Below, one piece after another: positions 3,338-31,800 of a stretch of 46,654 nt of DNA (position 1 is the first letter of the stretch; each line of letters begins with the position of its first letter). The DNA comes from a virus. The position numbers and the translations under genes were made by a program. The stretch covers positions 1-46,654 of the IMG/VR virus record IMGVR_UViG_3300026519_000019; one strand, 5' to 3'. The notes beneath the pieces were generated by a model. That model was not told where the DNA came from. It saw nothing but the letters and a program-made list of their open reading frames with translations, and did no database searches.

Positions 3338-3548
3338 TCAAGTAGATGTGATTACTTGTAATTACATATACGCTTAATAAGTACTTAAGTAATAATACTT
3401 ATATTATATGAATATAATTAATAATATGAACTGGTGAATATTATTAGTTGTATGAAATATAATTTAGTATTATATTGCGAACATGTTGATGTAATCAGCA
3501 TAAGGAGCAATAGGTACTTCAATAATTTTTTTATATAAAAAATATAAT

Positions 3549-4091
3549 ATGCCTACTAAAACAATAGAACATAAAACAAGAGAAATAATAGATACTCTGT
3601 ACAATATGCAACATAGTGCAGAAACTGTACTTGCTGTTGCTCGTACATATGCAGCTACTGGTAATCTGTCCGCAGCTGCCCGAGATAACGAAGTATCTTT
3701 TGAAACAGTAAAGTACTGGAAACAGAAAGATTGGTTTAATTCTATTCTTGAGTTATGCAGACAAGAGTTGCAGAGTAAGCTAGACGTAAAACTCACATCT
3801 CTTATAGACGATGTAGTAGAACACATACAAGACAGGCTCGATAACGGAGACTGGAATCAAAGAGGAACTCAGCGCATTCCTGTAAATATGAAAGTTCTTC
3901 TTCAGGCTATATCTGTCCTGTACGACAAGAGAGCCCTTATTAGAGGAGAGCCTACTTCTCGTATTGAGAGGGTATCAACAGAACAACGCCTGAACAAACT
4001 CTCCCGTAGATTTGCAGAACTTCCTACAAAAGCACAAGAGTTCATTGTCAATAATATTGATGATGACAGCGAAGAAAGAGTAGAGCATTAA
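3549..4091 (+). CDS. terS: Terminase small subunit (module 1)
   Basis: This 180-residue protein lies immediately upstream of a terminase large subunit, the usual TerS place. An N-terminal helix-turn-helix is visible at about residues 35-60 (GNLSAAARDNEVSFETVKYWKQKDW), as in DNA-recognising small terminase subunits. A long helical oligomerisation region follows (about 64-120), then a charged tail. TerS binds phage DNA and hands it to the packaging motor. The ATG at 3549 has no visible SD, being preceded by an A/T run (TATATAAAAAATATAAT), so translation may be leaderless or SD-independent. No better-placed start exists. Assignment rests on position and HTH, not on clear family identity. Confidence 0.75.
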   Translation: MPTKTIEHKTREIIDTLYNMQHSAETVLAVARTYAATGNLSAAARDNEVSFETVKYWKQKDWFNSILELCRQELQSKLDVKLTSLIDDVVEHIQDRLDNGDWNQRGTQRIPVNMKVLLQAISVLYDKRALIRGEPTSRIERVSTEQRLNKLSRRFAELPTKAQEFIVNNIDDDSEERVEH

Positions 4092-4140: not shown

Positions 4141-5589
4141 TTGCCAGTAAAAACACCTCTTAATACAAAGATATTAGAAGGATTTACAGGCTCCTGCTTA
4201 ACACACACTTTTGATGATCCTCAGCCAATACCCCAGTTTCACAGAGAATTATGGAAACTTTGTTGTGGTTCTTCTAAATATGTAGCGGTAGCTGCGCCGA
4301 GGGGCCACGCAAAATCAACAGCAGTAACACTTTCTTATGTACTTGCCACCGCTCTATTCAGAGAACACACGTATATAATAATTATATCTGATACAGAGTC
4401 TCAAAGCACAGAGTTCCTTAATGACATAAAGATGCAGCTCATAGAAAACGAAGATATTCGAGATCTGTTTGGAGTTGGCAAGTTCATAAAGGACAGTGAA
4501 ACCAACATTATTGTCGAAATGGATGACGGACACAAGTTCCGTATAATGGCCAAAGGAGCAGGGCAACGCATTCGTGGCCGTAAGTGGAGAAACAAACGCC
4601 CCGATCTCATCGTAGTAGATGATTTGGAAGACGATGAGGCAGTAGAGAACAAAGAACGCAGAGCCAAGTTATATGGATGGTTCACAAACGCCGTCATACC
4701 CGCCCTAAGCGACTCCGGCAAAATAAGAGTAGTAGGCACTATCCTGCACATGGACAGCGTTTTAGAGAAGCTCCTGAACAAAAAGTCGTGGAGAACTCGC
4801 AGATATGCAGCACACAATGCCGACTTCTCAGAAATATTATGGCCGGAGAAGTTTCCTAAAGAAAGATTAGAGGCCATAAGAGAGTCCTTTGTAGAGGACG
4901 GAAATCCTTCTGGATATTCACAAGAATACTTAAATCATCCTATAGATGAAAGTACTGCTTATTTCAGAAGAGACGATTTTCAGTTTTATAATCCTGATAT
5001 AATAAAAAATAAGAATTTAACATATTATACTGCAGCAGACTTTGCTATAAGTCAGTCAGCTAAAGCCGATTATACTGTCCTATGTACTGTTGCAGTAGAT
5101 AGCGATAATAAGCTATATGTAGTAGATGTCAGAAGAGGTAGATGGGATGCACGAGAGATCATTGACGAAATGTTCAATGTGCAAATCAAGTACTCTCCTG
5201 AAATATTTACAGTAGAAGCGGGCGCCATAGAAAAGGCTATAGGAGCATTTCTTAATGAAGAGATGTTCAGAAGAGGAGTATTCCTTAATCTTAACAAGCT
5301 CGTTCCCGTGAACGATAAAGTATCTAGGGCCAGAAGTATTCAAGCTCGCTTACGACAAGGCGGAGTATTTTTTAACAATAACACAGAGTGGTACCCTGCA
5401 TTTGAGCAGGAATTAATAAGATTTCCTAGAGACGTACATGATGACCAAGTGGATGCCTTTGCTTGGATAGGACTTACTTTGGACCAGATCGTTCCTGGAT
5501 TGACTCCTGAAGAACAAGAGGACGAAGAATGGTACAAAGAGTTCGGAGAAGACGTAGATTTAGGAAGAAATGTTTGGACAGGATACTAG
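4141..5589 (+). CDS. terL: Terminase large subunit (module 1)
   Basis: This 482-residue packaging ATPase/nuclease has a Walker A variant PRGHAKST (residues 53-60), Walker B LIVVDDLED (D160, D161) and a VGTILH coupling-type motif near 198-203. The RNase H-like nuclease acidic residues are D300 (TAADFA), E359 (TVEAG) and D434/D437 (HDDQVDAF). It cuts concatemeric DNA and pumps it through the portal. The start is TTG at 4141, directly after an in-frame stop at 4135-4137, with AAAGG about 10 nt upstream. No early ATG exists in this frame. Arginines are often AGA/AGG, unlike the second TerL at 16507. The two TerLs share only generic motifs. Confidence 0.95.
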   Translation: MPVKTPLNTKILEGFTGSCLTHTFDDPQPIPQFHRELWKLCCGSSKYVAVAAPRGHAKSTAVTLSYVLATALFREHTYIIIISDTESQSTEFLNDIKMQLIENEDIRDLFGVGKFIKDSETNIIVEMDDGHKFRIMAKGAGQRIRGRKWRNKRPDLIVVDDLEDDEAVENKERRAKLYGWFTNAVIPALSDSGKIRVVGTILHMDSVLEKLLNKKSWRTRRYAAHNADFSEILWPEKFPKERLEAIRESFVEDGNPSGYSQEYLNHPIDESTAYFRRDDFQFYNPDIIKNKNLTYYTAADFAISQSAKADYTVLCTVAVDSDNKLYVVDVRRGRWDAREIIDEMFNVQIKYSPEIFTVEAGAIEKAIGAFLNEEMFRRGVFLNLNKLVPVNDKVSRARSIQARLRQGGVFFNNNTEWYPAFEQELIRFPRDVHDDQVDAFAWIGLTLDQIVPGLTPEEQEDEEWYKEFGEDVDLGRNVWTGY

Positions 5590-5595
5590 AGCACT

Positions 5596-5748
5596 ATGGA
5601 AAAAAAGAAAAGAAAGAAAAAGAAGGTTAAGAATTATATGCTGGGCTCTGGTCTTTTGGGAGGAGCAGCCCGTTCTCTAAAAGGACGTAAATCTAAGATT
5701 GATGCGGCCGTTGATGGCGCAGTAAAGAGAGATTATAAAGCTAAGTGA
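5596..5748 (+). CDS. 50-residue basic head-module protein
   Basis: This short ORF starts 6 nt after the terL stop and encodes an extremely lysine-rich N-terminus (MEKKKRKKKKVKNYMLG). A small Gly/Ala/Leu stretch (SGLLGGAARSLKG) and a basic tail follow. Its stop overlaps the GTG start of the portal gene (GTGA at 5745-5748), which implies translational coupling. Similar tiny basic proteins sit between terL and portal in other phages, as the MCGG protein does in module 2. A DNA- or portal-associated role is inference. Confidence 0.65.
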   Translation: MEKKKRKKKKVKNYMLGSGLLGGAARSLKGRKSKIDAAVDGAVKRDYKAK

Positions 5749-7685
5749 CTATCGAAACTCTGGAGGCTATAGTTAATGAGTCTAACATAGCGGAGACAAT
5801 TGACGAAGATATTCTTGCGTCCATAGGCTCAGAAGTAAAGGCCGGATACGAAAGGGACGAAAACAGCCGCTCTGAATGGAAAGAAAGAATAGAAGCGTCC
5901 CTTAGTCTGGCTTCTCAGGTAGTCGAAACAAAATCCTATCCTTGGCCAAATGCTGCCAATGTTAAGTATCCTCTGCTTACCACAGCAGCGTTACAGTTCG
6001 CTTCTAGGGCCTACCCTGCCCTTATTCCCGGACAAAATCTCGTGAGGGGACGGGTTATAGGATTTGACGAGGACGGTTCAAAGACGGAAAGAGCCATAAG
6101 AATAGGCAAGCACATGAGTTACCAGCTCATGGAGCAAATGGAAAACTGGGAAGAAGATATGGACAAATTGTCTATTATCATTCCCATCGTAGGATGTGCC
6201 TTCAAGAAAACCTATTATAGCGACATAAAGCAGCACAATGTTTCTGAACTCGTACTAGCACAAGACATCGTAGTAGATTACTATACTAAATCCTTAGAAG
6301 ATGCCACTAGAGTAACCCATCGTCTATATCTTACAGAAAGAGACATTAAAGAAAGGCAGCTCTTAGGTATTTACAGAGATGTAGACTTAAGTCCTCCTAG
6401 AGGACTCGAAGAATCTCAAGAGAGTTCAGACAGGTCTGGCATGTCTCAACCTGAGCAGGACGAAGCCACTCCTTACTGCATACTAGAACAACATACATTT
6501 TACGATTTAGACGAGGATGGCTACTCTGAACCGTACATTATCACAATTGAGGAAGATTCTGGAAAAGTACTACGAATTGTACCTAGATTTGATCCGCAGG
6601 ATATTCAGCAAGATAATCTAGGTAATATAGTACACATAAAACCTGTAAATTACTTTACCAAATTCCCGTTCATACCCAATCCTGATGGAGGATTTTATGA
6701 TATCGGCTTCGGAACTCTTCTCGGCCCAATTAACAGCACTATTGATTCTGCAATCAATCAGCTTTTGGACGCAGGTACTTTATCCAACATGCCTTCAGGG
6801 TTTCTTGGAAGAGGCATTAGGCTTAAGGGAGGCAACTACAGGTTCTCTCCTGGAGAATGGAAGTTTGTAAATACTTCTGGAGCAGATATCATTAAGAATA
6901 TAGTACCTCTTCCTATAAATGCCCCTGATTCTACTATGTTTAACCTGCTAGGACTTATGATTAATGCAGGAGAGCGTCTGTCCAGCACCGTAGATTCTAT
7001 GGTAGGAGAGAATCCAGGACAAAACCAAAAAGCCACCACCACTATGGCCGTGCTAGAACAGGGAATGAAGGTATTTAGTGGAATATATAAGAGATTGTAC
7101 AGGTCTTTAAAGAAAGAACTAAAGAAGCTCTATAGACTCAATAGTATGCATCTAAGCGTAGAAGAATATTTCTTAATTTTAGATCCTGGACAGGAGCAAG
7201 CTGCGGCAATAGGTAGGGGCGATTATCAAATAGGCGATGCTGATGTAGTACCTTCTGCAGATCCTAATGTAGCAACAGAACAACAGAGGCTGGCTAAGGC
7301 CGCGGGGCTCCTAGAGCTATTGCAACTAGGAACAGTCAATCCACAAGAAGTTACTAAAAGAATTCTTGAGGCGCAAGATCAGCCGGGAGTTGAAATCCTT
7401 ATGCAGATGCCTCCTCCCCAGCCTAGTTTAGAGCAAATACAGTTCCAAGACGAGTCAGATAGGGAGTGGGCCAAATTAGAAATAGAAAAAATAAAGCTAG
7501 AACAAGATTCCATAAAGATCAAGGCAGACGCCTTGCTTGCTATGGCTAAAGCAGAGTCCGAAGAAGCTGGCACTCAGCTGGAAATGTATAAGTTGCAGCT
7601 GGATACTATACTTCAAGAAGAGGAAGCTTTAAAAGAGAGGCTTGAGAGAGCTGCAGAGAAGAAAGAAGACAAACAAAAGGAATAG
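5745..7685 (+). CDS. Portal protein (module 1)
   Basis: This 646-residue protein follows terL, the canonical portal place. The N-terminal region (about 25-120) contains YPWPNAANVKYPLLTTAALQ and an ALQFASRAYPALIPG segment typical of one phage portal family. The centre contains SAINQLLDAGTLSNMPSGFLGRGIRL, consistent with portal stem and crown elements. The C-terminal 100 residues are charged coiled coil (EKIKLEQDSIKIKADALLAM). Portals form the dodecameric DNA channel at one capsid vertex. The start is GTG, overlapping the preceding stop. It shows no visible similarity to the T7-type portal at 18370, so the window carries two different portal types. Confidence 0.9.
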   Translation: MTIETLEAIVNESNIAETIDEDILASIGSEVKAGYERDENSRSEWKERIEASLSLASQVVETKSYPWPNAANVKYPLLTTAALQFASRAYPALIPGQNLVRGRVIGFDEDGSKTERAIRIGKHMSYQLMEQMENWEEDMDKLSIIIPIVGCAFKKTYYSDIKQHNVSELVLAQDIVVDYYTKSLEDATRVTHRLYLTERDIKERQLLGIYRDVDLSPPRGLEESQESSDRSGMSQPEQDEATPYCILEQHTFYDLDEDGYSEPYIITIEEDSGKVLRIVPRFDPQDIQQDNLGNIVHIKPVNYFTKFPFIPNPDGGFYDIGFGTLLGPINSTIDSAINQLLDAGTLSNMPSGFLGRGIRLKGGNYRFSPGEWKFVNTSGADIIKNIVPLPINAPDSTMFNLLGLMINAGERLSSTVDSMVGENPGQNQKATTTMAVLEQGMKVFSGIYKRLYRSLKKELKKLYRLNSMHLSVEEYFLILDPGQEQAAAIGRGDYQIGDADVVPSADPNVATEQQRLAKAAGLLELLQLGTVNPQEVTKRILEAQDQPGVEILMQMPPPQPSLEQIQFQDESDREWAKLEIEKIKLEQDSIKIKADALLAMAKAESEEAGTQLEMYKLQLDTILQEEEALKERLERAAEKKEDKQKE

Positions 7686-7690
7686 ATCCG

Positions 7691-7903
7691 ATGACAAAAG
7701 TAGAATTTTTAGACTGGAAAGAGCATCCAGTAACGGCAGAAATGTATAAAGCTTTTATGGAAGTACGAGATTCCATAAAAGAAGATCTTGCTACAGGCAG
7801 TACTCTGGGCAACGAATCAGAGACGGCCAGAAGAGTTGGAATGATAGAGGGCTTAGACTTTTTCCTAAATGCAGGATATGACGGAGAAGACGATGAGTCT
7901 TAA
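7691..7903 (+). CDS. Small conserved-type head-module protein
   Basis: This 70-residue acidic protein has the pattern FLDWKEHPVT near the N-terminus, a helical MYKAFMEVRDSIKEDL and a C-terminal ARRVGMIEGLDFFLN. Comparable small proteins with an F-x-WK-HPVT start and an RxxGxIxGL helix commonly follow portal genes in phages. It lies 5 nt after the portal stop and overlaps the GroES-like gene by 11 nt, so all three are one translational unit. The function is unknown. A role in portal or head assembly is inferred from place only. Confidence 0.7.
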   Translation: MTKVEFLDWKEHPVTAEMYKAFMEVRDSIKEDLATGSTLGNESETARRVGMIEGLDFFLNAGYDGEDDES

Positions 7904-8183
7904 GCCAGCAGGTTATAGAATTCTTGTAAGACCAGAGCCTGTAAAAGAGACTACAGATTGGGGGTTTGAGCTTAATATTGATGAGCGGCTAGAGAGAGCA
8001 GCTCAAGTATACGGAGAAATAGTAGCAATAGGAGACTTTGCTTGGAAAGAAGACGGCCCTTGGGCCAAAGTAGGAGATAGGATAGCTTATATAAAGCACT
8101 CAGGAAAATTCCTAACTGATCCAGAAACGAACGAAGAGTTTGTTGTTATTAATGATGAAGACTGTTTAGCAATTCTCAATTAA
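7893..8183 (+). CDS. GroES-like co-chaperonin
   Basis: This 96-residue protein matches the length and layout of bacterial GroES (about 97 residues). It has an N-terminal strand GYRILVRPEP, then a segment equivalent to the GroES mobile loop (WGFEL where GroES has GGIVL). GEIVAIG then aligns with GEVLAVG, KVGDRIAYIKHSGKF with the KVGD core, and NDEDCLAIL with the C-terminal strand. GroES caps GroEL during folding; phage versions such as T4 gp31 let host GroEL fold the large capsid protein. The ATG at 7893 has GGAG 6 nt upstream; an upstream in-frame ATG at 7869 lacks one. Its place between portal and capsid genes suggests it serves capsid folding for module 1. Confidence 0.85.
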   Translation: MSLKPAGYRILVRPEPVKETTDWGFELNIDERLERAAQVYGEIVAIGDFAWKEDGPWAKVGDRIAYIKHSGKFLTDPETNEEFVVINDEDCLAILN

Positions 8184-8196
8184 GGAGAAATAAGAA

Positions 8197-8997
8197 ATGT
8201 CTGAAGAAGGCACTATTAGCGAAGAAGAATTTGAAGAAGTTGGTGATGGACTTTTGCAGGAAGGGGAAAGCACAAGCACATCAGAAGAACTTTCAGATAT
8301 TGAACAAGAGGCTATTTCTAAGGGATGGAATCCCCAAGGAGTAGAGGGTCGCAGAAACCTTACAGCAGAGGAGTTTCTAGATAGACAACCACTGTACGAT
8401 AAGATTCATAAGTCTGATCGAGCAGTAAAGCGTCTGCAGGAACAGCAAGAAGCTCTAATGAAGCACTTAGAGATGCTGCAAAATAATGTAGTGGACCGCA
8501 CAGTTGAGGACCTCAAGAGGCAAAAGAAGGAAGCCCTAGAAGAAGAAGACCACGACCGTGTTATTGAGATTGACGAGAAAATTATTAAGGCGAGAGAGGC
8601 TCCAGAGCCTCCTAAGCCCACACAAAGTACTGAAGTCTTTGATACATGGGTAGAAGAAAATACTTGGTATGAACAGGATGCTAAGTTAAGAAGGTATGCA
8701 GATGCTGTTGGCGCAGAATATGCCCAGCAATATGGCGAGATTACTCCGGCACTGCTTAACAAAATTGCCTTAGAAGTAAAGGAGACTTTCCCCGATAAAT
8801 TTAATGGTACTCGTACTAGACCTAGCCCTGTAGAGGGAGCCCAGCGAGGCAGAGGAAAAGCTAGAGCAGCTAAATATTCGGCTAAAGATCTGGACGAAGA
8901 TGCTAGAAATGTTATGCGGACCCTTGTCCGTAATGGCACTTATTCCAATGAACAGGAATACATCTCAGCTCTAGAAAAATCAGGTTACTTTAGCTAA
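8197..8997 (+). CDS. Scaffold-like protein (module 1)
   Basis: This 266-residue, highly charged protein has the composition of phage scaffolds. The first 50 residues are very acidic (SEEEFEEVGDG), residues about 75-140 are predicted coiled coil (KRLQEQQEALMKHLEML), and the C-terminal third is basic (RGRGKARAAKYSAKD), the part that in known scaffolds contacts the capsid protein. It lies between portal and capsid genes. An AAGGAG SD precedes the ATG. Scaffolds guide procapsid assembly and then leave. I see no protease domain. Assignment is by composition and position. Confidence 0.7.
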   Translation: MSEEGTISEEEFEEVGDGLLQEGESTSTSEELSDIEQEAISKGWNPQGVEGRRNLTAEEFLDRQPLYDKIHKSDRAVKRLQEQQEALMKHLEMLQNNVVDRTVEDLKRQKKEALEEEDHDRVIEIDEKIIKAREAPEPPKPTQSTEVFDTWVEENTWYEQDAKLRRYADAVGAEYAQQYGEITPALLNKIALEVKETFPDKFNGTRTRPSPVEGAQRGRGKARAAKYSAKDLDEDARNVMRTLVRNGTYSNEQEYISALEKSGYFS

Positions 8998-10109: not shown

Positions 10110-11018
10110 ATGCCTATTACAACTGGTAATTTTGCTCGCGCCCTTGAGCCGGGCGTAAATAAGTGGTACGGAGAAGCTTACGACGAGCACTCCGTGCAGT
10201 ACACTTCCTTGTTTGATACGTTCACTTCTAGAAAAGCTTTTGAAGAAGATATGAGCGTTTCTGGATTTGGTCTTGCGCAAGTCAAGCCTGAAGGGCAGCC
10301 TGTTAATTATGACAGTATGCAGCAGGGCTTCACTACTCGTTACAATCATGTCGTCTATGCTCTTGGTTTTGTAATTACCAAAGAGATGTACGATGACGAT
10401 CTGTATGATATTGTCGGCAAGAGAAACGCTAGAAACCTCGCCTTCAGTATGCGCCAGACCAAGGAGATTGTTGCTGCTAATGTCTACAATCGAGCCTTTA
10501 ATCCGTCCTATGCAGGAGGTGACGGGAAGGAGCTGTGTGCTACCGATCATCCTAACTATGCTGGCGGCACTTACGCTAACGAGCTGACTACTGCAGCAGA
10601 TATTAGTGAGGCGTCTTTGGAGCAGGCATGTATTGATCTTATGAACTTCACGAATGATCGTGGACTTAAGATTAATGTTATGCCCAAGTCTCTCATTATT
10701 CCTGTACAGCTTTCCTTTGAAGCTCATCGTATTCTGAACAGCACTCTTCGTGTCGGTACTGCTGATAACGATCCTAATGCTCTTCGGGATATGGGCCAGT
10801 TTCCTGGAGGTATCGTAGTTAATAACTACTTGACTGATGCTGATGCATGGTTTATCAGAACTTCTGCCCCAGATGGCATGAAGCACTTTGAGAGATCTGC
10901 TGATAGTTTTGGTCTGGATAATGATTTTGATACGGACAATGCGAAGTTCAAGGCTTCTGGCCGGTATAGCTTTGGTTGGAGTGATCCTCGAGGAATCTTT
11001 GGTTCGCCCGGTGCGTAG
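10110..11018 (+). CDS. Major capsid protein, Mu gpT-like (module 1)
   Basis: This 302-residue protein has the length and features of the Mu-like major head subunit family (gpT). They include an early GVNKWYGEAYDE segment, a central KEIVAANVYNRAFN helix region and GKELCATDHPNYAGG. Also present are LIIPVQLSFEAHRIL and a C-terminal GRYSFGWSDPRGIFG. It would form the shell of an HK97-fold capsid. The SD is AAAGGAG. It shows no apparent similarity to the capsid protein at 20989, which belongs to the BPP-1 Bbp17-like type. Two different capsid shell proteins are therefore encoded about 10 kb apart. Confidence 0.9.
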   Translation: MPITTGNFARALEPGVNKWYGEAYDEHSVQYTSLFDTFTSRKAFEEDMSVSGFGLAQVKPEGQPVNYDSMQQGFTTRYNHVVYALGFVITKEMYDDDLYDIVGKRNARNLAFSMRQTKEIVAANVYNRAFNPSYAGGDGKELCATDHPNYAGGTYANELTTAADISEASLEQACIDLMNFTNDRGLKINVMPKSLIIPVQLSFEAHRILNSTLRVGTADNDPNALRDMGQFPGGIVVNNYLTDADAWFIRTSAPDGMKHFERSADSFGLDNDFDTDNAKFKASGRYSFGWSDPRGIFGSPGA

Positions 11019-11073: not shown

Positions 11074-11724
11074 ATGAGTACTATAAGATTTTGTGAAGTA
11101 AGAGACTGTAAAAATATTCATGTAGCGCACGGTTTGTGTGATAAACACAGACAACGACTAAAAAAGCATGGACATTTAAAGCAGGCACGTCCCGAAGATT
11201 GGGGACAAAAAGAAAAACATCCTCTTATGGGAACTTACCGCTGGATGAAAAAAATGGAGGCTAAATTCTCTATCTGTAAAGAGTGGAAAGATTTCTGGAA
11301 ATTTGTTGAAGATGTAGGTAATAGACCTTCAGAAAAACACCAACTTCGCAGAATAGACAGACACGGTAATTATTCTCCAGAAAATTGTAAATGGGTAAAA
11401 ATTGAGCCCAATAAAAATAAAGCAGATTATGCTAAACAATGGAGAAAAAATAATCCAGACAAAGTAAAAAACAATGAGCTTCGTAAAAAGTTTGGGATTA
11501 CTTTAGAAGATTATAATAAAATGTACGAGGAGCAGAATGGCTGCTGCAAAATTTGCAACAGCTCCTACAGTAAAGAAAAACAAGCCTTGTCTGTGGACCA
11601 TTGTCATATTACTGGCAAGGTACGAGGACTTCTTTGTAATACTTGTAATCGAGCTTTAGGTATGTTTAAGGATTCTCAGGAAATACTAGAGTCCGCCGCT
11701 AAATATCTTAAAGTAAATAATTAA
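11074..11724 (+). CDS. Free-standing HNH/endonuclease VII homing endonuclease
   Basis: This 216-residue protein has an N-terminal zinc-binding segment (CEVRDCKNIHVAHGLCDKH, about residues 7-25), a middle part with RRIDRHGNYSPENCKWV typical of HNH-associated modules, and a C-terminal recombination endonuclease VII-type domain. That domain has CCKIC (about 162-166), LSVDHCHITGKVRGLLC (about 179-195) with the His-Cys catalytic and zinc site, and NTCNRALG. Such enzymes cut DNA and spread by homing. Its insertion directly after a major capsid gene is a typical homing site. Its codons are AT-rich like module 1. It may be irrelevant to virion function. Confidence 0.9.
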   Translation: MSTIRFCEVRDCKNIHVAHGLCDKHRQRLKKHGHLKQARPEDWGQKEKHPLMGTYRWMKKMEAKFSICKEWKDFWKFVEDVGNRPSEKHQLRRIDRHGNYSPENCKWVKIEPNKNKADYAKQWRKNNPDKVKNNELRKKFGITLEDYNKMYEEQNGCCKICNSSYSKEKQALSVDHCHITGKVRGLLCNTCNRALGMFKDSQEILESAAKYLKVNN

Positions 11725-12404: not shown

Positions 12405-12905
12405 ATGACTGAAGATAAAGACATAAGTACCTCTGAAATTATTGGGGAGCTCAGAAAGGGAGCAAGAACTTTTAAGATTTTTGAAAAGGCCCTAGCTATA
12501 GCAGAGAATATTGCAGACCATAAAAAACAAGTAACTGTTTTAACAAAAGAAATAAAAGTTCTCTCTTCTGAAAGAGATGCCTTAGATAGTATTTGTGATG
12601 AACTGGTCTCTAAAAGTAACGACGCAGAAAAAAGATTCAAAGAGCTAGACTCTGCAATACAAAAAAGGTTGGAACAGGCGGAGAAAGAGGGAAACGTCCT
12701 TATAGATTCTGCTCGCAAAGAGGCAGCTAGTATAGTAGCTTCTGCTAAAGCAGAGTCTAATAAAATTAAGCAAGGAATTAAGTCCCTACAAAAAACAGCA
12801 CAGGCTGCCAGACAGGCTAAAGATGCTGCAGAAGACGAATATCTGCAAGTAAAAAACAAAGTACAAAAAATAAAAAGTAGTCTAATACAGGAGCTAAGTT
12901 TATGA
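12405..12905 (+). CDS. Coiled-coil hypothetical protein
   Basis: This 166-residue protein is almost entirely charged coiled coil (about residues 25-160) with many Lys, Glu and Ala heptads. Examples are KKQVTVLTKEIKVLSSERD and DSARKEAASIVASAKAE, the latter recalling the stalk of ATP-synthase subunit b-type helices. A very strong SD (AAGGAGGT) precedes the ATG. The stop overlaps the next start (ATGA). A role as a structural rod, assembly chaperone or fibre spacer is possible; none is proven by sequence. Confidence 0.65.
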   Translation: MTEDKDISTSEIIGELRKGARTFKIFEKALAIAENIADHKKQVTVLTKEIKVLSSERDALDSICDELVSKSNDAEKRFKELDSAIQKRLEQAEKEGNVLIDSARKEAASIVASAKAESNKIKQGIKSLQKTAQAARQAKDAAEDEYLQVKNKVQKIKSSLIQELSL

Positions 12906-13093
12906 AGATCTCAGGAGGAACTCCTTCTGCTGGAAATATAATAAAAACCTTTGTTCCAGTAGAAGACTTTTTTAGTGATGTTTTTAATAGCCAATATTGT
13001 AAAAATATGAAGTATAATATCAGAGATACTCATCATGCTCTGTTGCACCACGTGCTTCAGTGGGAACAAGAAGGCAAGGTAAAGGTAGCTTAA
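12902..13093 (+). CDS. Small hypothetical protein
   Basis: This 63-residue protein has no recognised family. It starts MKISGGTPSAGN, has an aromatic, acidic middle (VPVEDFFSDVFNSQYC) and a His-rich helix (RDTHHALLHHVLQWEQEG). It overlaps the coiled-coil gene by 4 nt and is separated from the next start by a single base, so it is translationally coupled to both. The AGGAG of its own early codons is not its SD; it probably relies on coupling. Confidence 0.55.
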   Translation: MKISGGTPSAGNIIKTFVPVEDFFSDVFNSQYCKNMKYNIRDTHHALLHHVLQWEQEGKVKVA

Positions 13094-13094
13094 C

Positions 13095-13481
13095 ATGGCA
13101 CTCACTCACTCTACTGCTGTTCGTAATGGATTAGCAGATTATACTGTAGATCAAATAGATCTTGGTGTTACTGACGTCACTGGAGATCTTGTGATTATGA
13201 CCTCCGGGGATGTAGAAGTTGCCACCTTAACTTGGACAGCTACTCCTGCTTTTGGTGCTGCTGCTTCTGGCACCGCCACAATGAATGCTATTAATGACGA
13301 CACTAATGCTACTGGAGGTACGGCAGCCCTGTTTAAATTTGTAGATAGAGACAACGTTGAAGTTGTTAGAGGTACTGTTACAGCAACAGGCGGTGGCGGA
13401 GATATTGAGCTTTCCTCGGTTACTATTGGTGCTGGAGATACTGTAAGTATTACCTCGTTGACTTATACTGCGAGTCCCTAA
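13095..13481 (+). CDS. Hypothetical head-associated beta protein
   Basis: This 128-residue, Thr/Ala/Gly-rich beta protein starts ALTHSTAVRNGLADYTVDQIDLG, a start often seen in small proteins encoded near phage capsid genes. The rest is repeated short strands (GDLVIMTSGDVEVATLTW, VVRGTVTATGGGGDIELSSV). It is probably a head-surface or neck component. It is the last gene with the AT-rich style of module 1. The next gene begins 3 nt after its stop and marks a change in composition. Confidence 0.65.
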   Translation: MALTHSTAVRNGLADYTVDQIDLGVTDVTGDLVIMTSGDVEVATLTWTATPAFGAAASGTATMNAINDDTNATGGTAALFKFVDRDNVEVVRGTVTATGGGGDIELSSVTIGAGDTVSITSLTYTASP

Positions 13482-13484
13482 CTA

Positions 13485-14357
13485 ATGGCTAAAGTATTAC
13501 CAAGGACACGAGAAACACTTTCCGCAGGCGGGACTACAAGTGTGGCGCTAGGCGGTGCTGTGAGTGGAGCACAGGCTTTTTCTGCTAATGCTTCGGCAGG
13601 CCAGCGAATCGCTGTATGGTTTGAGGATGGAACTGCGCTCCAGTGGGGTATTTGGTATCTCGATGGTGCTGGCAACCTTGTTCAAGACAGATTCATTGGA
13701 TCTACTACTGGGAGCCAACTAACGCTTAGTGCAAGTGCAGAGGCATACTCAGCAGATTTGCCGACGGGGTATTCCGGGTTAGGTCACACAGCGCAGAACA
13801 CAGTTCAGGCTGTAGTTAATAAATACACACCGTTTACGGATAACTGGAGTGGTGCTTATTTCAATAACGCATTCTACTGCATAGCAGCGCACTACCCTGG
13901 GCCAGTAGATGGTGTAGCAACAGGTATCAGGTTCAGGTTACGCACGTCAGCTACCGCAGGTTCTGGCGCAAAAATACGCTGGGGGATCTATGAGCTCAAC
14001 GCTGATTACACACCAATCGGCCAGCCAATTGCAGAGACTGGGGACATATCACTAGAAATTGCTCCTGGATATATAGTTGCTAATTTTGGTGCTCCTGTAG
14101 AAGGATTATTCAATCGTGACCTGGCAGTCGGCTATCTATGGAACACAAACGCAGGTGCAACGATGCATAATTGCCGCAGACGCTATTGGACACCATTTGG
14201 TGTGGCTGGCGACACAACTAATATCGCTACAGCATTGCGCGACGGCACGAATAGAGTTGGGTGGACAACTATGCCAGATGCGGATACCGCTGTATGGAAT
14301 GCGGCCCCTGAAAATGCAGATCAGGCAGCTTTCTTCACTTTGCTGGAGTTGCAATAA
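13485..14357 (+). CDS. Appendage or fibre-like structural protein
   Basis: This 290-residue protein has an N-terminal beta domain (about residues 5-95). It holds RTRETLSAGGTTSVALGGA, GAQAF, a VWFEDGTALQWGIWYLDG strand pair and RFIGSTTGS. That is the recurrent small domain found in phage tail, neck and appendage proteins. The C-terminal 190 residues look like a jelly-roll-type module with repeated aromatic strands (GSGAKIRWGIYELNADYTP, ...TPFGVAGDTT). No convincing SD precedes the ATG, which lies 3 nt after the previous stop. Base composition rises in GC along the gene. It is the first gene of the second part of the window. Receptor binding is possible but unproven. Confidence 0.6.
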   Translation: MAKVLPRTRETLSAGGTTSVALGGAVSGAQAFSANASAGQRIAVWFEDGTALQWGIWYLDGAGNLVQDRFIGSTTGSQLTLSASAEAYSADLPTGYSGLGHTAQNTVQAVVNKYTPFTDNWSGAYFNNAFYCIAAHYPGPVDGVATGIRFRLRTSATAGSGAKIRWGIYELNADYTPIGQPIAETGDISLEIAPGYIVANFGAPVEGLFNRDLAVGYLWNTNAGATMHNCRRRYWTPFGVAGDTTNIATALRDGTNRVGWTTMPDADTAVWNAAPENADQAAFFTLLELQ

Positions 14358-14911
14358 TGGTTACACTGGCGAATAAATTCGGGCTTCCTGAGTACCTAGA
14401 AACTCTTGGCTACGAGGTGCACCAAGTTATCAACCATGATGGCACGGTAAGCGTCAGTCACTCAGGCGGCACGGAGAGCGAGATACAGGCAGCAATAGAT
14501 GCTTACGACCCGCTAATTCCAGCCCAGACAGATGCAATAAAACGAGTAAAATCTGCCGCTGATGAAGCTCGCCGACGTTACGCAAATCCAGAAAAAGATG
14601 GCATCTATCTCACCAAGGCGCAGCAGGCGACAGATTATTTGGCTGCGGTAGCCGCTAGTGGAGGCGTTGAGTTAGCAGACACGTCTGGCTATGAGTTCGT
14701 GGTAAGTGAGCAGCACGCAAGCAATTTCCAATCTGTGTCGGACGCTGCTAATTTCATCCTTGGTATGCGTAACAAATGGCTTGCAATTATGCTGGCAATC
14801 GAAGACATTGCACGTCCAGCAATTACCGAAATCAGCGCACTCACATCTGATGAGTGGCAGCGTGCTGAAGTTATTGCAGATAGCGCTGTGACTGGACTAG
14901 AGGCGACCTAG
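14357..14911 (+). CDS. Tail-fibre-assembly-like helical protein
   Basis: This 184-residue protein overlaps the preceding stop by one base (TAATG). The N-terminal 45 residues form a small beta segment (YEVHQVINHDGTVSVSHSGG). A helical part follows (DAIKRVKSAADEARRRYANPEKDGIYLTKAQQ) of a type often found in phage proteins encoded next to fibre genes. The C-terminal half is also helical (FILGMRNKWLAIMLAIEDIARPAI). It may be a fibre chaperone or a virion component. The family is not firmly recognised. Confidence 0.6.
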   Translation: MVTLANKFGLPEYLETLGYEVHQVINHDGTVSVSHSGGTESEIQAAIDAYDPLIPAQTDAIKRVKSAADEARRRYANPEKDGIYLTKAQQATDYLAAVAASGGVELADTSGYEFVVSEQHASNFQSVSDAANFILGMRNKWLAIMLAIEDIARPAITEISALTSDEWQRAEVIADSAVTGLEAT

Positions 14912-14912
14912 G

Positions 14913-15530
14913 ATGCCCGGTGCAGGCTGGGCAGAACTTGGCAAATACCCGCTTGGTGGGCCGTATAGTGTCTCGTCACCTAGTGGCACAACAATTTCAC
15001 CAGTGACGGCTTCCCTCGGTGTCACGGGTCAACCTGTATCACTGACCCAACCAAACATCATCACCCCTAGTTTAGGCGCAATATCAGTATCAGGTCAGAC
15101 AGTTGACATTACGTTTGGCAGATCAATATCACCATCGCCAGGTGCAATAACAATTAGTGGTCAATCTGCATCAATGTTTTTGTCAAAAAACATTGATCTA
15201 GTTACTGGATCAATTTCATTATCAGGTCAAGCTGTTGACATATTAGCTGATAAAGTGATTTCACCGTCATTGGAGGTGATGAGTGTTAATGGTCAAACGG
15301 TGATAGTAGATGTCCTTACCAGCATCAACCCAGCTACTGGCACGATATCGATAGTCGGCGAAACTGTCGATATAACGACGCTTCGCATAATCTCACCAAG
15401 TAGTGCTACACTATCAATTAATGGTCAATCTGTGACGGTTGGCGCCGTGTTTGTGCAGGTCAAAGAAACAGGTTTCATTTTCAAGCTTGTTGGACCACTC
15501 GTATCAGATTTGATAAAGGAGCTTATATAA
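14913..15530 (+). CDS. Beta-repeat structural protein
   Basis: This 205-residue protein is built from about six imperfect repeats of roughly 28-30 residues. The core is I-SPS-G-ISVSGQ-VDI: IITPSLGAISVSGQTV, SISPSPGAITISGQSA, NIDLVTGSISLSGQAV, and so on. The N-terminus (MPGAGWAELGKYPLGG) and the C-terminal helix (LKLVGPLVSDLIKELI-like) cap the array. Such repeats form stacked beta structures in phage fibres and head appendages. It starts 1 nt after the previous stop region (TAGGATG) and its stop is shared with the next start. It is probably surface exposed. Confidence 0.65.
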   Translation: MPGAGWAELGKYPLGGPYSVSSPSGTTISPVTASLGVTGQPVSLTQPNIITPSLGAISVSGQTVDITFGRSISPSPGAITISGQSASMFLSKNIDLVTGSISLSGQAVDILADKVISPSLEVMSVNGQTVIVDVLTSINPATGTISIVGETVDITTLRIISPSSATLSINGQSVTVGAVFVQVKETGFIFKLVGPLVSDLIKELI

Positions 15531-15790
15531 TGTGGCCATTTAAGTCGAAAATAATTGGCGCGCCTGTGTACATCAACTGCGGTCAAAAGTCTGCTGAATT
15601 CAGGAAAAAAAGGGCACGGTCCCGCATCGAAAACCTGACTGCGAAACTCGCACGACTGCACTCTCGCACAACGCCATTTTCTGAATTATCTCAAGAGATC
15701 GCAAATACAAAAGCGTCAATCAACGCTTGGTCAGACATTCTTGAGCTGGCAGAGCTGGAGCTAACTCAACAAGAACGGAGGGTTAACTAA
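15530..15790 (+). CDS. Small basic coiled-coil protein
   Basis: This 86-residue protein starts MWPFKSKIIGAPVYINCGQ and continues as a basic helix (KSAEFRKKRARSRIENLTAKLARL). A second helix follows (LSQEIANTKASINAWSDIL), suggesting a coiled-coil hairpin. Both start and stop overlap neighbouring genes by one base (TAATG), showing a tightly coupled operon. The function is unknown. In this place it could be an assembly factor for the appendage proteins on either side. Confidence 0.6.
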   Translation: MWPFKSKIIGAPVYINCGQKSAEFRKKRARSRIENLTAKLARLHSRTTPFSELSQEIANTKASINAWSDILELAELELTQQERRVN

Positions 15791-16224
15791 TGGCCTGGGT
15801 AGTCCATTCAAAATGGCTTGAGCGACATTTCGATGGCACTCAGCCACTTGATCTCGATGCCACGCTTGCGGGTGACACAATCAACCTCGGTATTGTGACA
15901 GAATCGGTGATCGATCCTGATGTCGATAACCTATACAGTGGACTCACCCCGGTGACCATTGGCACTGCATGGACCGGCCCTGTCGCTTTGGCTAACATCA
16001 CATGCGGTCTAACAGTAGGCCTTGATTTGTCATTTGACGCGGATGATCCCGCTGTTATTGCGCAAGATGCTGGAGGGTTCACCAATGGTCGAACTCTCGT
16101 GATTTATGAAGCGACAAACAGCTATATCATTGCCACTAGCATCGAAAGCGCTGCATTTGGTAATACCACAGGGTCTATTACAATCACACTGGACGCTAAT
16201 GGTGTGTGGGTGTTATCAATATGA
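15790..16224 (+). CDS. Hypothetical structural beta protein
   Basis: This 144-residue protein begins MAWVVHSKWLERHFDGTQPLDLDATLAG, with an aromatic start and short strands. It continues with Thr/Ile/Val-rich strands and ends NTTGSITITLDANGVWVLSI. The style is that of a small phage virion protein. It overlaps the next gene by 4 nt (ATGA at 16221-16224). I recognise no named family. Its position between the fibre-like genes and terL suggests a head- or appendage-associated role. Confidence 0.6.
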   Translation: MAWVVHSKWLERHFDGTQPLDLDATLAGDTINLGIVTESVIDPDVDNLYSGLTPVTIGTAWTGPVALANITCGLTVGLDLSFDADDPAVIAQDAGGFTNGRTLVIYEATNSYIIATSIESAAFGNTTGSITITLDANGVWVLSI

Positions 16225-16502
16225 AACCTATAATCGCACCAGTTACAGGAGCAGCTACTGCAAAAATATCGATTGATGCTGGTATTAGGTTGACAGTTTC
16301 AGCCGGAAAATTGACAGGCGCTGAAACTGTCACTTTCCAACTTGATGAAGAGGGTGTGTCAACATTAGGTGACTTGTATCAAGATGGCTCAATCCGTGAG
16401 CTGACCGCGACCCACAATGCGATCACAATACCCGGACCTATCGACCTGGAGGTCACGAAATCAGTGACGGCGGCAGCGGTCGGTGTGTACGCGAAAGGCT
16501 AA
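16221..16502 (+). CDS. Hypothetical small beta protein
   Basis: This 93-residue protein starts MKPIIAPVTGAATAKISIDAG and is made of alternating strands (GIRLTVSAGKLTGAETVTFQLDEEG). An in-frame GTG at 16206 is less likely, because the ATG at 16221 forms the standard ATGA overlap with the upstream stop. The pattern resembles small immunoglobulin-like or decoration-type phage proteins. It ends 4 nt before the second terL. No specific function can be given. Confidence 0.6.
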   Translation: MKPIIAPVTGAATAKISIDAGIRLTVSAGKLTGAETVTFQLDEEGVSTLGDLYQDGSIRELTATHNAITIPGPIDLEVTKSVTAAAVGVYAKG

Positions 16503-16506
16503 GCTA

Positions 16507-18123
16507 ATGGGTGTAATAGCATCAGCGATGGCATCCAGCGATGAGTATTACGCTGGTCAAATTGACCTGTTGCTTGCTGACGAGTGTTCTAAATTTTACG
16601 CTGATCCGCATGGTTGGGCTATGTGGGCGTTTGATTGGGACCATGGTGAACTGGAAGGCTTTACTGGTCCTGATACGTGGCAGCGTGACACATTAATTGA
16701 CATCGGAAAACAAGTCGCTGAGCGGGGTTTCGATGGCATTACACCCGTTGACCCAATCCGCGAGGCCACGGCGTCAGGCCACGGCATCGGTAAAAGTGCC
16801 CTTACTGCGTGGATCATTTTATGGATTATGTCAACGCGCCCTTATGCGAAAGGTATCGTCACCGCGAACACATCTGATCAGTTGCGAACAAAGACCTGGG
16901 GTGAACTCGGTAAGTGGAGGGCGCGCTGTATTGTTGGTCACTGGTTTGAATACAACAATGGTCGCGGGTCAATGTCTCTATATCACCACTCATGGCCAGA
17001 ATCGTGGCGCGTAGATGCCCAAACTTGTCGCGAGGAGAATTCTGAAGCGTTTGCGGGGCTGCATGCTGCAAACTCGACACCTTTTTATATTTTCGATGAG
17101 GCGAGTGCTGTCCCTGATAAAATATGGGAGGTTGCCGAAGGTGGGTTGACCGATGGTGAGCCGATGTTTTTTGTATTTGGCAATCCGACGCGTAACACTG
17201 GGAAGTTTCGGGAGTGCTTTAATCGGAGTAAGCATCGTTGGTCAGTGCGGCAGATAGACAGTCGGACTGCGAAGATGACCAACAAGAAACTCATCAAACA
17301 GTGGCTTGATGACTGGGGAGAAGATTCAGATTTCTTTAGGGTCCGGGTGTTGGGGCGGTTTCCGCGAGCAGGCGATACTCAATTTATACCCTCAGACGTG
17401 GTGTTTGATGCACAAAAGCGCGGACCTGGGCGATACTTAGGTGATGATCCATTGATCTGCGGTATTGATGTAGCACGCGGCGGCGATGATAATTGCATGA
17501 TTGGGTTTCGTCGTGGAAAAGACGCGAAATCGGAAAAAACGTATCGAATTCCTGGCGAGAAGTCGCGCAACAGTATGCATGTCATCAGCAAGATCACAAT
17601 GATTTTGGATCGGCATAAACCTGACGTAACATTTTTGGATGAGACAGGTATCGGTGGTCCTATGGTAGATCGCCTGGTGCAGCTTGGGTACCATGTCATT
17701 GGAGTAAATTTCGGTGGAAGAGCTGATGATGAAAAACACTTCGCTAATAAAACTGCCGAAATGGGGTTTAGGTGTCGCCAATGGTTGATGGAAGGTGGTG
17801 CGATAATCGATGATCCGCAATTAGAAGAAGAATTGACATCACGTGACTACTGGCATGATGACAAAGATCGTCTAGTGCTAGAGAAAAAGAAAGACATGAA
17901 GAAGAGGATCAAATGCTCGCCGGACTGGGCTGACCAATTGTATCTCACGTTCGCATATAATGTACCTGCTCGTGAGGTTCCTCGTGACCAACTCGACGCG
18001 GTGGTTCATGTACGCAATTCCGACACTGGTGACTATGACCCGCTAAGTGCCACGGATTCGTTTAGTGACTATGACCCGCTAAGTGCCACGGATTCGTTTA
18101 GTGACTATGACCCACTTGGCTGA
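16507..18123 (+). CDS. terL: Terminase large subunit (module 2)
   Basis: This 538-residue packaging motor has Walker A SGHGIGKSA (residues 90-98), Walker B FYIFDEAS (D197, E198) and coupling motif FGNPTRNTG (about 224-232). The nuclease acidic residues are D321 (GIDVARGGDD), D378/E379 (FLDETGIGG) and D473/D476 (DWADQLYL). An upstream in-frame GTG (16483) overlaps the previous gene; the ATG at 16507 with AAAGG about 8 nt before it is preferred. The C-terminus ends in a 12-residue repeat, DYDPLSATDSFS, present twice plus a partial copy. It belongs to a different TerL group from the one at 4141. No small subunit gene is recognisable next to it. Confidence 0.95.
   Translation: MGVIASAMASSDEYYAGQIDLLLADECSKFYADPHGWAMWAFDWDHGELEGFTGPDTWQRDTLIDIGKQVAERGFDGITPVDPIREATASGHGIGKSALTAWIILWIMSTRPYAKGIVTANTSDQLRTKTWGELGKWRARCIVGHWFEYNNGRGSMSLYHHSWPESWRVDAQTCREENSEAFAGLHAANSTPFYIFDEASAVPDKIWEVAEGGLTDGEPMFFVFGNPTRNTGKFRECFNRSKHRWSVRQIDSRTAKMTNKKLIKQWLDDWGEDSDFFRVRVLGRFPRAGDTQFIPSDVVFDAQKRGPGRYLGDDPLICGIDVARGGDDNCMIGFRRGKDAKSEKTYRIPGEKSRNSMHVISKITMILDRHKPDVTFLDETGIGGPMVDRLVQLGYHVIGVNFGGRADDEKHFANKTAEMGFRCRQWLMEGGAIIDDPQLEEELTSRDYWHDDKDRLVLEKKKDMKKRIKCSPDWADQLYLTFAYNVPAREVPRDQLDAVVHVRNSDTGDYDPLSATDSFSDYDPLSATDSFSDYDPLG
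18031..18113 (+). repeat. 36-bp tandem repeat at the end of terL
   Basis: The 36-nt unit starting GACTATGACCCGCTAAGTGC is present twice without change (18031-18066, 18067-18102), followed by an 11-nt partial copy. It encodes DYDPLSATDSFS, giving the terminase an acidic repeated tail. Identical copies point to recent slippage or duplication. Confidence 0.9.
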
Positions 18124-27181: not shown

Positions 27182-28858
27182 ATGCCCAAGATCGCACAAT
27201 ATGAACCAGATCAAGTAAGGTCACAGGTAGTTACGCAACCATTGGCGCAAGATGCTCCCCCCGGTACATTTGGTAATCAGATCGCCAAAGGTGTCGCGGA
27301 TGTAGTCAATGCAGGACTTCAAATGAAGCAGCGCATTGATATTACATCATCTGAAGAAGCACTGGTGCAATTCGAGCGTGATAAAAATGACATATTCTTC
27401 AATCCTGACACCGGGTACTTCAACACCCAGGGTCGTGACGCGTATGACAAATCTTCTGATACTTCAAAAGCACTTGAAGAGTTGAAAAAGAAATACGGCG
27501 AAACACTTAACGCTCAGTCAAAGCAGTTGTTTGACCGAGCGGCTGATGCGCATATTGCCCGCAGCAGTGCTGATATTGCCAGACACGCATCGAAAGGACT
27601 TAAAGCTTGGGAGATAGCGACCATCGAGTCGCAATTGGAAAATTCGCTTGAGAATGCGTCACTGTATTGGAATGACCCTGATCGATTGAGAGTGCAAAAC
27701 GTACTTGGCAGGCAAGCTATTATTGATTCATCTGACTTGATGGGTCTTGGTCCAGAAGCAACAGCAGAGAAGTTGCAAACGTTCGAGTCGACTTTTGCAA
27801 ATTCCACTATCAGTGCAGCCATTCAGAGTAGCGCAGATGAAGGCAGGGTTGCGTTCAAAGAATATGGTGATCGGTTGGAAGGCCCAGACAAAGTAAAGAT
27901 TAAAGCTGCGATTGATCGGAAAACTAACATTGAGAAGACACAATCTGACGCTGTTGCTGCAATACTGACTGCGAGTAGATTGGTTGATCAATATGAAAAC
28001 AGGTCTGATATTGTTGAAGAAGTGAATAAGATAGAAGACGCTGAACTGCGCAAAAAAATAATGACCGAAACAATGACCCAGTTCAACCGGAAAAAACAGG
28101 CTGAAAGAGAACAAGAGAATGATTATTATCAGATAGCCATCGGTCAAGTTAATGACGGTTTGTCACCGACTGAAATAGAATCGAAGAATCCTGAAGTTTG
28201 GTTGGGGATGACTGACATTCAGCGGAATAACATTTTGTCAGGTAAACACCAGCTAACTGACCAAGTTGTTTTGGCAAATTTCAGATTACTTGGTGTCAAA
28301 GAAAAAGCGGCTTTTGAACCAATGAGTATCGCAGACAAAGTTAAACCTGCCGATCTGCAAAAAGTAATCAGTGAAGTCAATGCCGCTAAGAAAGGTAAAC
28401 AAGGTAGCCGGGTTAAATCGTTGACATCTAAAGCCATTGATGCCGCTGAAGGTGCGTTTGGGAAAAGAAGCAGTTGGAAAAAGAGGAGCGGTGGGTTCAC
28501 TGAAAAAGGAAAACTTGCCAACGATTTCCTAAGCGATCTTCAAGACGCCATTGATGAGTTTGAAGAAAATAAGCAGTCAAAAATCACGCCTGCTGAAGAA
28601 AATCAAATAATCAGCGAATTCACTCAGCGAATTGTAGTCGAGCGTTCTGCTTTTGGTCTTGACTTCCTTGCGCCCGATATCGAGATTGATTTGAGTAACA
28701 CGCCAGCTAACGATGTTCGAGTGTTGAACCGGATCATTAACAACACCCCAAACATCGATGTCAAAGATTTGACTGATGCGTATCAGTTCCTTATCGATAA
28801 CAATCAACCCGTGACGGTCACCAGTCTGAAAAACGTATATGAACAGGGAACAAAATAA
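27182..28858 (+). CDS. Internal ejection protein (gp15-position)
   Basis: This 558-residue, mostly helical, charged protein lies between the gp14-like and giant proteins, where T7 encodes core protein gp15. The N-terminus reads MPKIAQYEPDQVRSQVVTQPLAQ, followed by FNPDTGYFNTQGRDAYD, a repeated pattern in internal virion proteins of podoviruses. Long coiled stretches follow (about 80-320). I see no enzymatic motif. It probably forms part of the core stack and the periplasmic DNA tunnel. The stop overlaps the next start by one base. Confidence 0.8.
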   Translation: MPKIAQYEPDQVRSQVVTQPLAQDAPPGTFGNQIAKGVADVVNAGLQMKQRIDITSSEEALVQFERDKNDIFFNPDTGYFNTQGRDAYDKSSDTSKALEELKKKYGETLNAQSKQLFDRAADAHIARSSADIARHASKGLKAWEIATIESQLENSLENASLYWNDPDRLRVQNVLGRQAIIDSSDLMGLGPEATAEKLQTFESTFANSTISAAIQSSADEGRVAFKEYGDRLEGPDKVKIKAAIDRKTNIEKTQSDAVAAILTASRLVDQYENRSDIVEEVNKIEDAELRKKIMTETMTQFNRKKQAEREQENDYYQIAIGQVNDGLSPTEIESKNPEVWLGMTDIQRNNILSGKHQLTDQVVLANFRLLGVKEKAAFEPMSIADKVKPADLQKVISEVNAAKKGKQGSRVKSLTSKAIDAAEGAFGKRSSWKKRSGGFTEKGKLANDFLSDLQDAIDEFEENKQSKITPAEENQIISEFTQRIVVERSAFGLDFLAPDIEIDLSNTPANDVRVLNRIINNTPNIDVKDLTDAYQFLIDNNQPVTVTSLKNVYEQGTK

Positions 28859-31800
28859 TGCCGTTCGACCCAAGCAAAGTTGACCTGAGTTCAATTTCAG
28901 AAGTAGCAACTGGGGAAGAGGTTGATTCATCTTTCAACACTCAAGATGACAATCTTGAGTTCACCATGGGTGAAGCGGCGAAAGTTAACCCTGACAATCA
29001 TGCCAAAGTTTTGGATCTGAGTAGGAAAACAGGGATTCCGAGTTTCGCTGTCGAGGCTGACATTGACTCAGTTAAACAGATCGTTAACAAAAATGAGTTC
29101 GATTTCAGTAGTCTTAGAGATAAAAGCCCGGTCACTGCTGGATATCTGACCAATATCGACAACGCTATCGTTGCTCAAGATGATGTTGATATTATGCAGT
29201 CAATTGAAGACACGCTGACTGCGGCTGGGAAATATCTCAGTGACATCGGCAGCGGGTTTGAGAAAGGTCAGTTGACAGTTGAATCGTCTGATATTGGCCT
29301 TAGCAGGATGTATTCAGCATTGGGGGTTGGTGAAGCTGTCACTGACGACCAGATAAATCGATTGAAAGAAATCGAAACCCTGACAAATAAAGACAATGAG
29401 GTGTATGGGTTTCTGTCTGGCGCACCTATTGCAGCGGCTGAGCAGCTGCCAATCATGTATGAAATACTCAGCACTGGTCTCGGATATAGTGTCGCAGGGG
29501 CCGGGGTAGGCTATGTCGCGGGTAAACTCCCCGGTGCTACAGCAGGGGCGCGCATCGCAGGTCGCGTTGGTGTCGCCAAGGCTGCATTCGATCTTGAAGC
29601 AGGGCTGGCATTCAACGAGTTCTCAGCTTTAAAAGATGAAAAAGACAATTTGATGAATCCGAAAATCGCAGCAGGTGCAGCGGTTTTGGTGGGTTCAATC
29701 AACGCGGGTCTTGAATTCATCTCACTCATGGCACTCGGTCGCACTGTCACACCGGTGATGCGCGCAGTAATCAAGAGCAAAATTAAGAAGTCATTAGCGA
29801 CTGAAACAGGTCGGCAAATGATTGGTCGATTGCTTAAAAACTACGGTATTTCTGTAGGTACTGAAGCGGTTACTGAGGGTGCTCAAGAATTCACCAATGT
29901 TATCGGTACTGAACTGGCGAAGTACATTGATAAAGACTCGTTCACTGAGCAAGACTTGTCATCTGCAATGGACAGAATATTCAGCATTGAAACTGCTGAG
30001 CGTGTGGGAGGTGCCGCTAAAGTAGGTGCTCAGGCGTCGTTGATCTTTGCAGGTGCAGGTACTGCTGCGAGTGTGATAGTTGAGACACGGCAGCGTGACA
30101 AACTGTCTACGGATGAGCAGTTACGCATCGATTCACTCAATGCTGATGCTGAAAACTCGAAACTACGCGAGCGCGACAAAGAGTCATTCAAGCAGTTTGT
30201 CAGTGAAGCCGATGGTGATAATGACACTCAAGTATTTATCGATGGCGCTCAGGTATCGTTATATCTGCAAGATAAGACCTCTGAAGATATCCAGGCCGAC
30301 CCAGCATTGAAACTATTGTCTGAGAAGGCGGCTGAAGCTGCTGCGCTTGGTAATGACGTACAAGTCCCTGTGAGTGACTTCGCTGGTGAGATAGCTGGTA
30401 CTGAGCACTACGCACAACTGCGTGACGCCATGACTCTCTCCGGTGAGTCAGTGTCACCGTTTCGTCAAGAGCAGGCGAAGAAGGAGACTGAGAGTTACAT
30501 CAAATCACTGATGAATGAAGCTAAGCAGAATGCCAGCGAGTATGTCGAGGCTCAGGAAATCTATGACACGGTACGTGAACAACTGGTTGACTCAGGTCAG
30601 GTCAGTGCCGCTAACGCTTCTATCATGGCGCAAGTAGTACCTGCCTGGGCAACAGCGCAGGCGCAGCGCAGTGGTAAAACAGTGCGACAGGTTTACCAGG
30701 ACGCGGGTTTGATCATCGAGGGACCACAGACTGGCGAAGCTGCGCGCATCGCTGTCGAGCAGGTGTTGGAGCAGAATATTGTTGACAGTAAACAAGTGCG
30801 TAAATTACAGGAGGAACTAGCACAAATAGAAAGTGAATTTGAGGTATTACGTAAGCCAGGTGCATATGATGATAAGAAGTGGGAGTCTATTAGTGATAGG
30901 GCTGCGCTAGTCAGAGCTGAACTGATAAAGCTAACCGGTGATCCTTATGGCAAGCAGAAAAATAAAAAAACAAGTAAGCCATCCGATGACATTCTCAATG
31001 CTAAATATGATTCGCCTAGTAAAGTCCCTGAAGAAGTTATGAGTTGGTTAATTAAAAACAACCAAATATTGACGAGTGACGCTACTGACGCTGTCAGATG
31101 GTCGAGAATATATGACACATTGAACGATGAAAGATATCCCCCTGGTGAGGTCACCATTTACCGTGCTGTCATAGGTGATGGCATTCGCCCAGGTGATTGG
31201 GTAACAACATCACGTGAGTACGCGGAAGATCATAATGACAGGTATCTTGAAGGAAAAGGTAACATTATTGAAGATGTTGTTAATGGACCTGATTTATTGG
31301 TTTCACCAACGGGTAACCTTGAAGAAGCGATATTTGCACCGCGTGAATTTTCAGGAGTAATATCGCACGGCGAACCGGTGGAGTTCAAACTGAAAGATTT
31401 AACACCGTTACTAGAGCGTGATTTGCTTGCACAATCACCCGCTAAATCAAAAGCACGAGGCTATTACGACCCGGCAAACAGTGTCATCCGCCTAACTGAA
31501 GCTGCTGACCTTTCAACATTCCTGCATGAGTTTGCTCACTTCATGTATGAGATGGAGCTGAAAGGTAACACTGACCTGGTGAAAAGTATTAACAATTGGT
31601 TCAAGCGTAACGCTGAAGATATTGCTAAAGAGGCGAACGGTTACCTGGGTGATGAGTTTGATGTGTTGAAGCAGAGTGATGTAAAGAAGTTCACAGATCA
31701 ACAGAAAAAGAAAATAATCAATACCGAACGATTTCTTGACATCGGTTTAAAGATCGGTGGGAAAACTAAATTATATAGAGGTATTTCAGATACAACCGGC

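Follow-up and report, generated by a model that had tools for sequence, protein, structure and literature searches.

A GroES co-chaperonin as an inherited core gene in the head module of a widespread phage lineage

We find that the open reading frame (ORF) at 7893..8183 (+ strand) of the IMG/VR virus record IMGVR_UViG_3300026519_000019, whose 46,654 nucleotides were analyzed as a whole and are called the window below, encodes a real phage GroES of 96 aa, ordinary within its lineage. GroES is an inherited core gene of this widespread lineage, and nearly all the phages that we found with the same type of capsid protein carry it, usually in the same slot. The complete reading, in which this core-gene GroES acts as a lid on the host GroEL with the capsid protein as most likely client, is one we consider quite probable.

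The protein matches the Pfam Cpn10 family (PF00166) over residues 3-94 when scanned directly (29.7 bits against a cut-off of 21.1, E 6.9e-7), as well as phrog_3188, described as "co-chaperonin GroES", over residues 1-96 (37.2 bits). When all six frames of the window were searched with PF00166, the ORF was missed, because the fast first look gave no candidate; since the direct protein scan is above the cut-off, we treat this as a false negative. In single-sequence phmmer comparisons with solved GroES chains, the window protein matches 3nx6 with E 4.5e-5 and E. coli GroES (1aon) only weakly, with E 0.043, whereas the family profile retrieves E. coli GroES from the PDB sequences at E 3.7e-9. A Cpn10 match is present in all 65 aligned sequences. 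The first 11 bases of the ORF are shared with a small ORF that precedes it (7691-7903), and a GGAG motif resembling a ribosome-binding site lies just 5' of the start; an alternative, longer in-frame start occurs at 7869.

AlphaFold2, given an alignment of the protein with 64 viral relatives, yielded a model with a mean pLDDT of 88.7. The structures that match this model best belong without exception to Cpn10/GroES, Cpn20, or gp31, with a Foldseek probability of 1.00 and VIA Z scores ranging from 11.6 down to 8.1; GroES/Cpn10 chains score between 10 and 11.6, and the first other fold to be matched, a quinone oxidoreductase, scores 7.0. In the GroES ring, the N-terminal segment and the C-terminal strand pair between neighbouring subunits, and we observe both of these parts in the alignment and in the model of the window protein. 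An earlier note, made from the sequence alone, had recognized a GroES-like length and strand order in this ORF and proposed structure prediction as a check; the GroES fold was indeed obtained, and profile, structure, and alignment all bear out the identity as well as the length and strand order.

The mobile loop corresponds to the segment TDWGFEL (residues 21-27, 7953..7973, + strand), aligned to GroES chains and the 64 relatives, where E. coli GroES has SAGGIVL. The mobile-loop-like WGFEL pointed out previously (residues 23-27) is thus at the expected position. The loop glycine, G24 in the window protein, is kept in 61 of the 65 aligned sequences. In the tripeptide that binds GroEL, the first position (F25) is hydrophobic in 100% of these sequences and the third (L27) in 97%, which, together with the glycine, suggests selection for GroEL binding as far as conservation can tell. 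The middle position is hydrophobic in 74% of the sequences and is Glu in the window protein, which counts against a role as GroEL lid. In the roof region, residues 55-62 of the window protein read GPWAKVGD, and across the phage Cpn10 group a GPWCKxGD-like motif is conserved, with Trp in 53/65 and Cys in 48/65 aligned sequences; this motif may be a marker of this phage Cpn10 clade.

The gene lies in a head module with the order TerS-like (3549-4091), TerL, portal, small ORF, GroES, scaffold-like, two ORFs, and Mu gpT-like capsid protein. The terminase large subunit (4141..5589, +; phrog_38, 316 bits) and the portal protein (5745..7685, +; phrog_1216, 117 bits) are followed by the small ORF of 70 aa already mentioned (7691..7903, +), which has a homologue in the related contig L001 and annotated ORFs of similar size in the same slot of other phages. 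On the other side of GroES, the product of 8197..8997 (+) has no confident family match, and a scaffold function is inferred from its position and its acidic, helical character; the location between portal and scaffold described earlier is therefore correct. The major capsid protein (10110..11018, +; phrog_371, 58 bits) has 302 residues, or about 33 kDa at 110 Da each. Directly 3' of the capsid gene, we observe a gene for an endonuclease VII / HNH homing-type endonuclease (11074-11724; phrog_307, 118 bits), which is probably a mobile insertion since it has no counterpart at that place in L001.

To place this module among its relatives, viral contigs were gathered by their capsid protein, and phage records were added, so that the loci were not selected by GroES. 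GroES is found between the portal and capsid genes in 52 of the 54 loci with both genes detected, and upstream of the capsid gene in 30 more, the majority of which end before the portal is reached, which amounts to 82 of 84; 19 loci were too short upstream to judge its presence. The same gene order occurs in Alcaligenes phage QDWS535, seawater phage 023Pt_psg01, Pelagibacter phages HTVC023P and HTVC027P, Roseobacter phages CRP-901 and CRP-902, phage DSL-LC04, Planktothrix phage Pag-Yong1, Caulobacter phage RW, and several Manatee Spring genomes, the portal being annotated as hypothetical only in some of them. The lineage includes the isolated phages HTVC023P, HTVC027P, CRP-901, CRP-902, QDWS535, and Pag-Yong1, and a published survey counts GroES as one of 13 core genes in the HTVC023P type (PMC9599517). 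The placement between portal and scaffold, which had been thought unusual, is thus the normal slot, including in isolated phages with Alcaligenes, Pelagibacter, Planktothrix, and Caulobacter hosts.

Two genomes, vir526 and MW202601, depart from this arrangement. An explanation of these as GroES-less viruses of archaeal hosts was ruled out, since a whole-record search detected Cpn10 elsewhere in both. Cpn10 outside the portal-capsid slot is located at 42883-43134 in BK063670.1 and at 13798-14013 in MW202601.1, distant relatives with the same capsid family; in one of the pair it lies just upstream of TerL, and the virus is assigned to Methanomicrobiales.

A profile search for Cpn60/GroEL, which used the same fast first look that missed the GroES ORF, gave no match in the window or nine relatives, and the likely partner is therefore the host GroEL, with the phage supplying the lid only. 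The proposed need of the capsid for its own form of the host folding chamber thus holds in one respect, as the gene travels with the capsid lineage, and fails in the other, as the chamber itself was not found in these ten sequences. The window GroES would form a seven-fold lid whose mobile loop would dock on host GroEL, F25 and L27 occupying the places of Ile25 and Leu27 in E. coli GroES. This lid would close the host chamber over newly made phage proteins, competing with or replacing the host GroES, and its main cargo would most likely be the major capsid protein of 33 kDa, whose gene lies 2 kb downstream.

That the capsid protein is the client is likely, and this assignment has to be weighed against a more general role. 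GroES might be kept because it raises the folding capacity of GroEL during infection, to the benefit of many proteins of phage and host and without the capsid protein as a special client, the position beside the portal gene setting only the time of expression. The small capsid protein, which requires no enlarged chamber, is consistent with such a general advantage, as are the two relatives with Cpn10 away from the portal-capsid slot and the observation that T4 gp31 supports all GroES-dependent folding in E. coli (PMC6318259). Nevertheless, the position of GroES ahead of the capsid gene hardly varies, and the GroES distances follow those of the capsid protein somewhat more than those of the portal. 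Over 45 loci, GroES and capsid distances correlate with r 0.85 (permutation maximum 0.30), GroES and portal or scaffold distances with r 0.82 each, and the partial r is 0.45 for GroES-capsid given the portal and 0.23 for GroES-portal given the capsid protein. These correlations are suggestive only, because all four genes are co-inherited, and co-inheritance that extends over the entire head module points to no one protein as client, the capsid protein included. We hold the general advantage to be a realistic possibility, if a tentative one. Since a capsid protein of about 33 kDa should fit the normal chamber, the chamber-size reason given for T4 would not apply, and plain supply of a lid, or a lid adapted to this particular protein, appears likelier than an adaptation to size.

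Alternatively, the GroES fold could have been repurposed, for example into a head protein with a structural or assembly role or into a decoy blocking host GroEL. The gene is indeed inside the head module, and the mobile loop is divergent in some relatives (e.g. L108). Nevertheless, the loop glycine and the outer hydrophobic residues are kept in the great majority of sequences, as binding to GroEL predicts, and we judge repurposing improbable.

A further question concerns the window itself, in which the full set of TerL, portal, and capsid genes occurs twice and which is probably an assembly chimera of two unrelated phages, A and B, joined at about 12900-13500. Genes up to 12394, the minus-strand ORF at 1867-2595 among them, have their matches in phage-A contigs (L001 and the remainder of its contig, G001), and genes from 14913 match an unrelated phage-B group (L016, L019, and others). 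The strongest change point in trinucleotide composition falls at 13251-13501, and the GC content of the window rises from ~0.38 to 0.49 across the change. Each half is open at one end. In L016, the genes 5' of TerL follow a TerS-like ORF (3432-3932), which has no counterpart at that place in the window. The phage-A capsid protein was not found in 41 phage-B contigs, nor the phage-B portal in 36 phage-A contigs, in repeat searches whose positive controls were detected, and a DNA search of 12405-16600 against phages gave no match. In the phage-B part, a 2306-aa ORF (28858-35778) matches phrog_9880, of unknown function, over about 1200 residues and shows a weak match to a ParB C-terminal domain.

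The change in composition, the switch in homology, and the absence of both modules together from any tested relative make it probable that the "module 1" framing of the earlier note, with its contrast to another capsid module of the same genome, arose as an artefact of assembly. A genuine recombinant that carries both head modules complete and has a GroES lid dedicated to one capsid protein, so that host folding capacity would be divided between two capsids, is very improbable. The GroES finding holds for a chimera and a recombinant alike, because the gene is well inside the phage-A part. Finally, that the protein is a small beta-barrel resembling GroES by chance, as the weak single-sequence match to E. 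coli GroES might hint, is hardly credible given the concordance of profile, structure, and conservation and the retrieval of E. coli GroES by the family profile.

In this large lineage, a phage-encoded GroES thus belongs to the permanent core and is not an occasional auxiliary gene, so that cultured members, for example the phages of Caulobacter, Alcaligenes, and Roseobacter, offer a test of the capsid-client idea. With a capsid protein that should fit the normal chamber, these phages could also reveal whether lids are kept for reasons beyond chamber size.

Compared with known systems, the closest are the phages of the lineage itself (HTVC023P/HTVC027P, CRP-901/902, QDWS535, Pag-Yong1, and RW), which share with the window the GroES family and the arrangement portal, small ORF(s), GroES, scaffold-like gene, two ORFs, and Mu gpT-like capsid protein. 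Their GroES proteins align with that of the window at about 24-38% identity; in several of them the N terminus is longer by tens of residues than in the window protein, and their loop is usually KTKGGIxL instead of TDWGFEL. Bacterial GroES/Cpn10 (PF00166) resembles the window protein in fold, length, N- and C-terminal strands, and mobile-loop position, whereas the window protein is phage-encoded, without an adjacent groEL, and the phage group has a slightly shorter roof region with a conserved Trp. T4 gp31 is likewise a phage-encoded GroES fold, matching the window model with VIA Z scores of 9.1-9.6 (rmsd 4.0 for the match at Z 9.1); no gp31 chain was among the matches of the family-profile search of PDB sequences up to E 0.1, which listed cellular Cpn10s. 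gp31 binds host GroEL, can replace GroES, and is essential for folding the capsid protein gp23 (PMC6318259). A capsid client is accordingly known in T4 and likely here. Nevertheless, gp31 has a longer loop and is without roof loops, features believed to make room in the chamber for gp23 with its 56 kDa (PMC6318259); the capsid protein of the window, by contrast, has only about 33 kDa.
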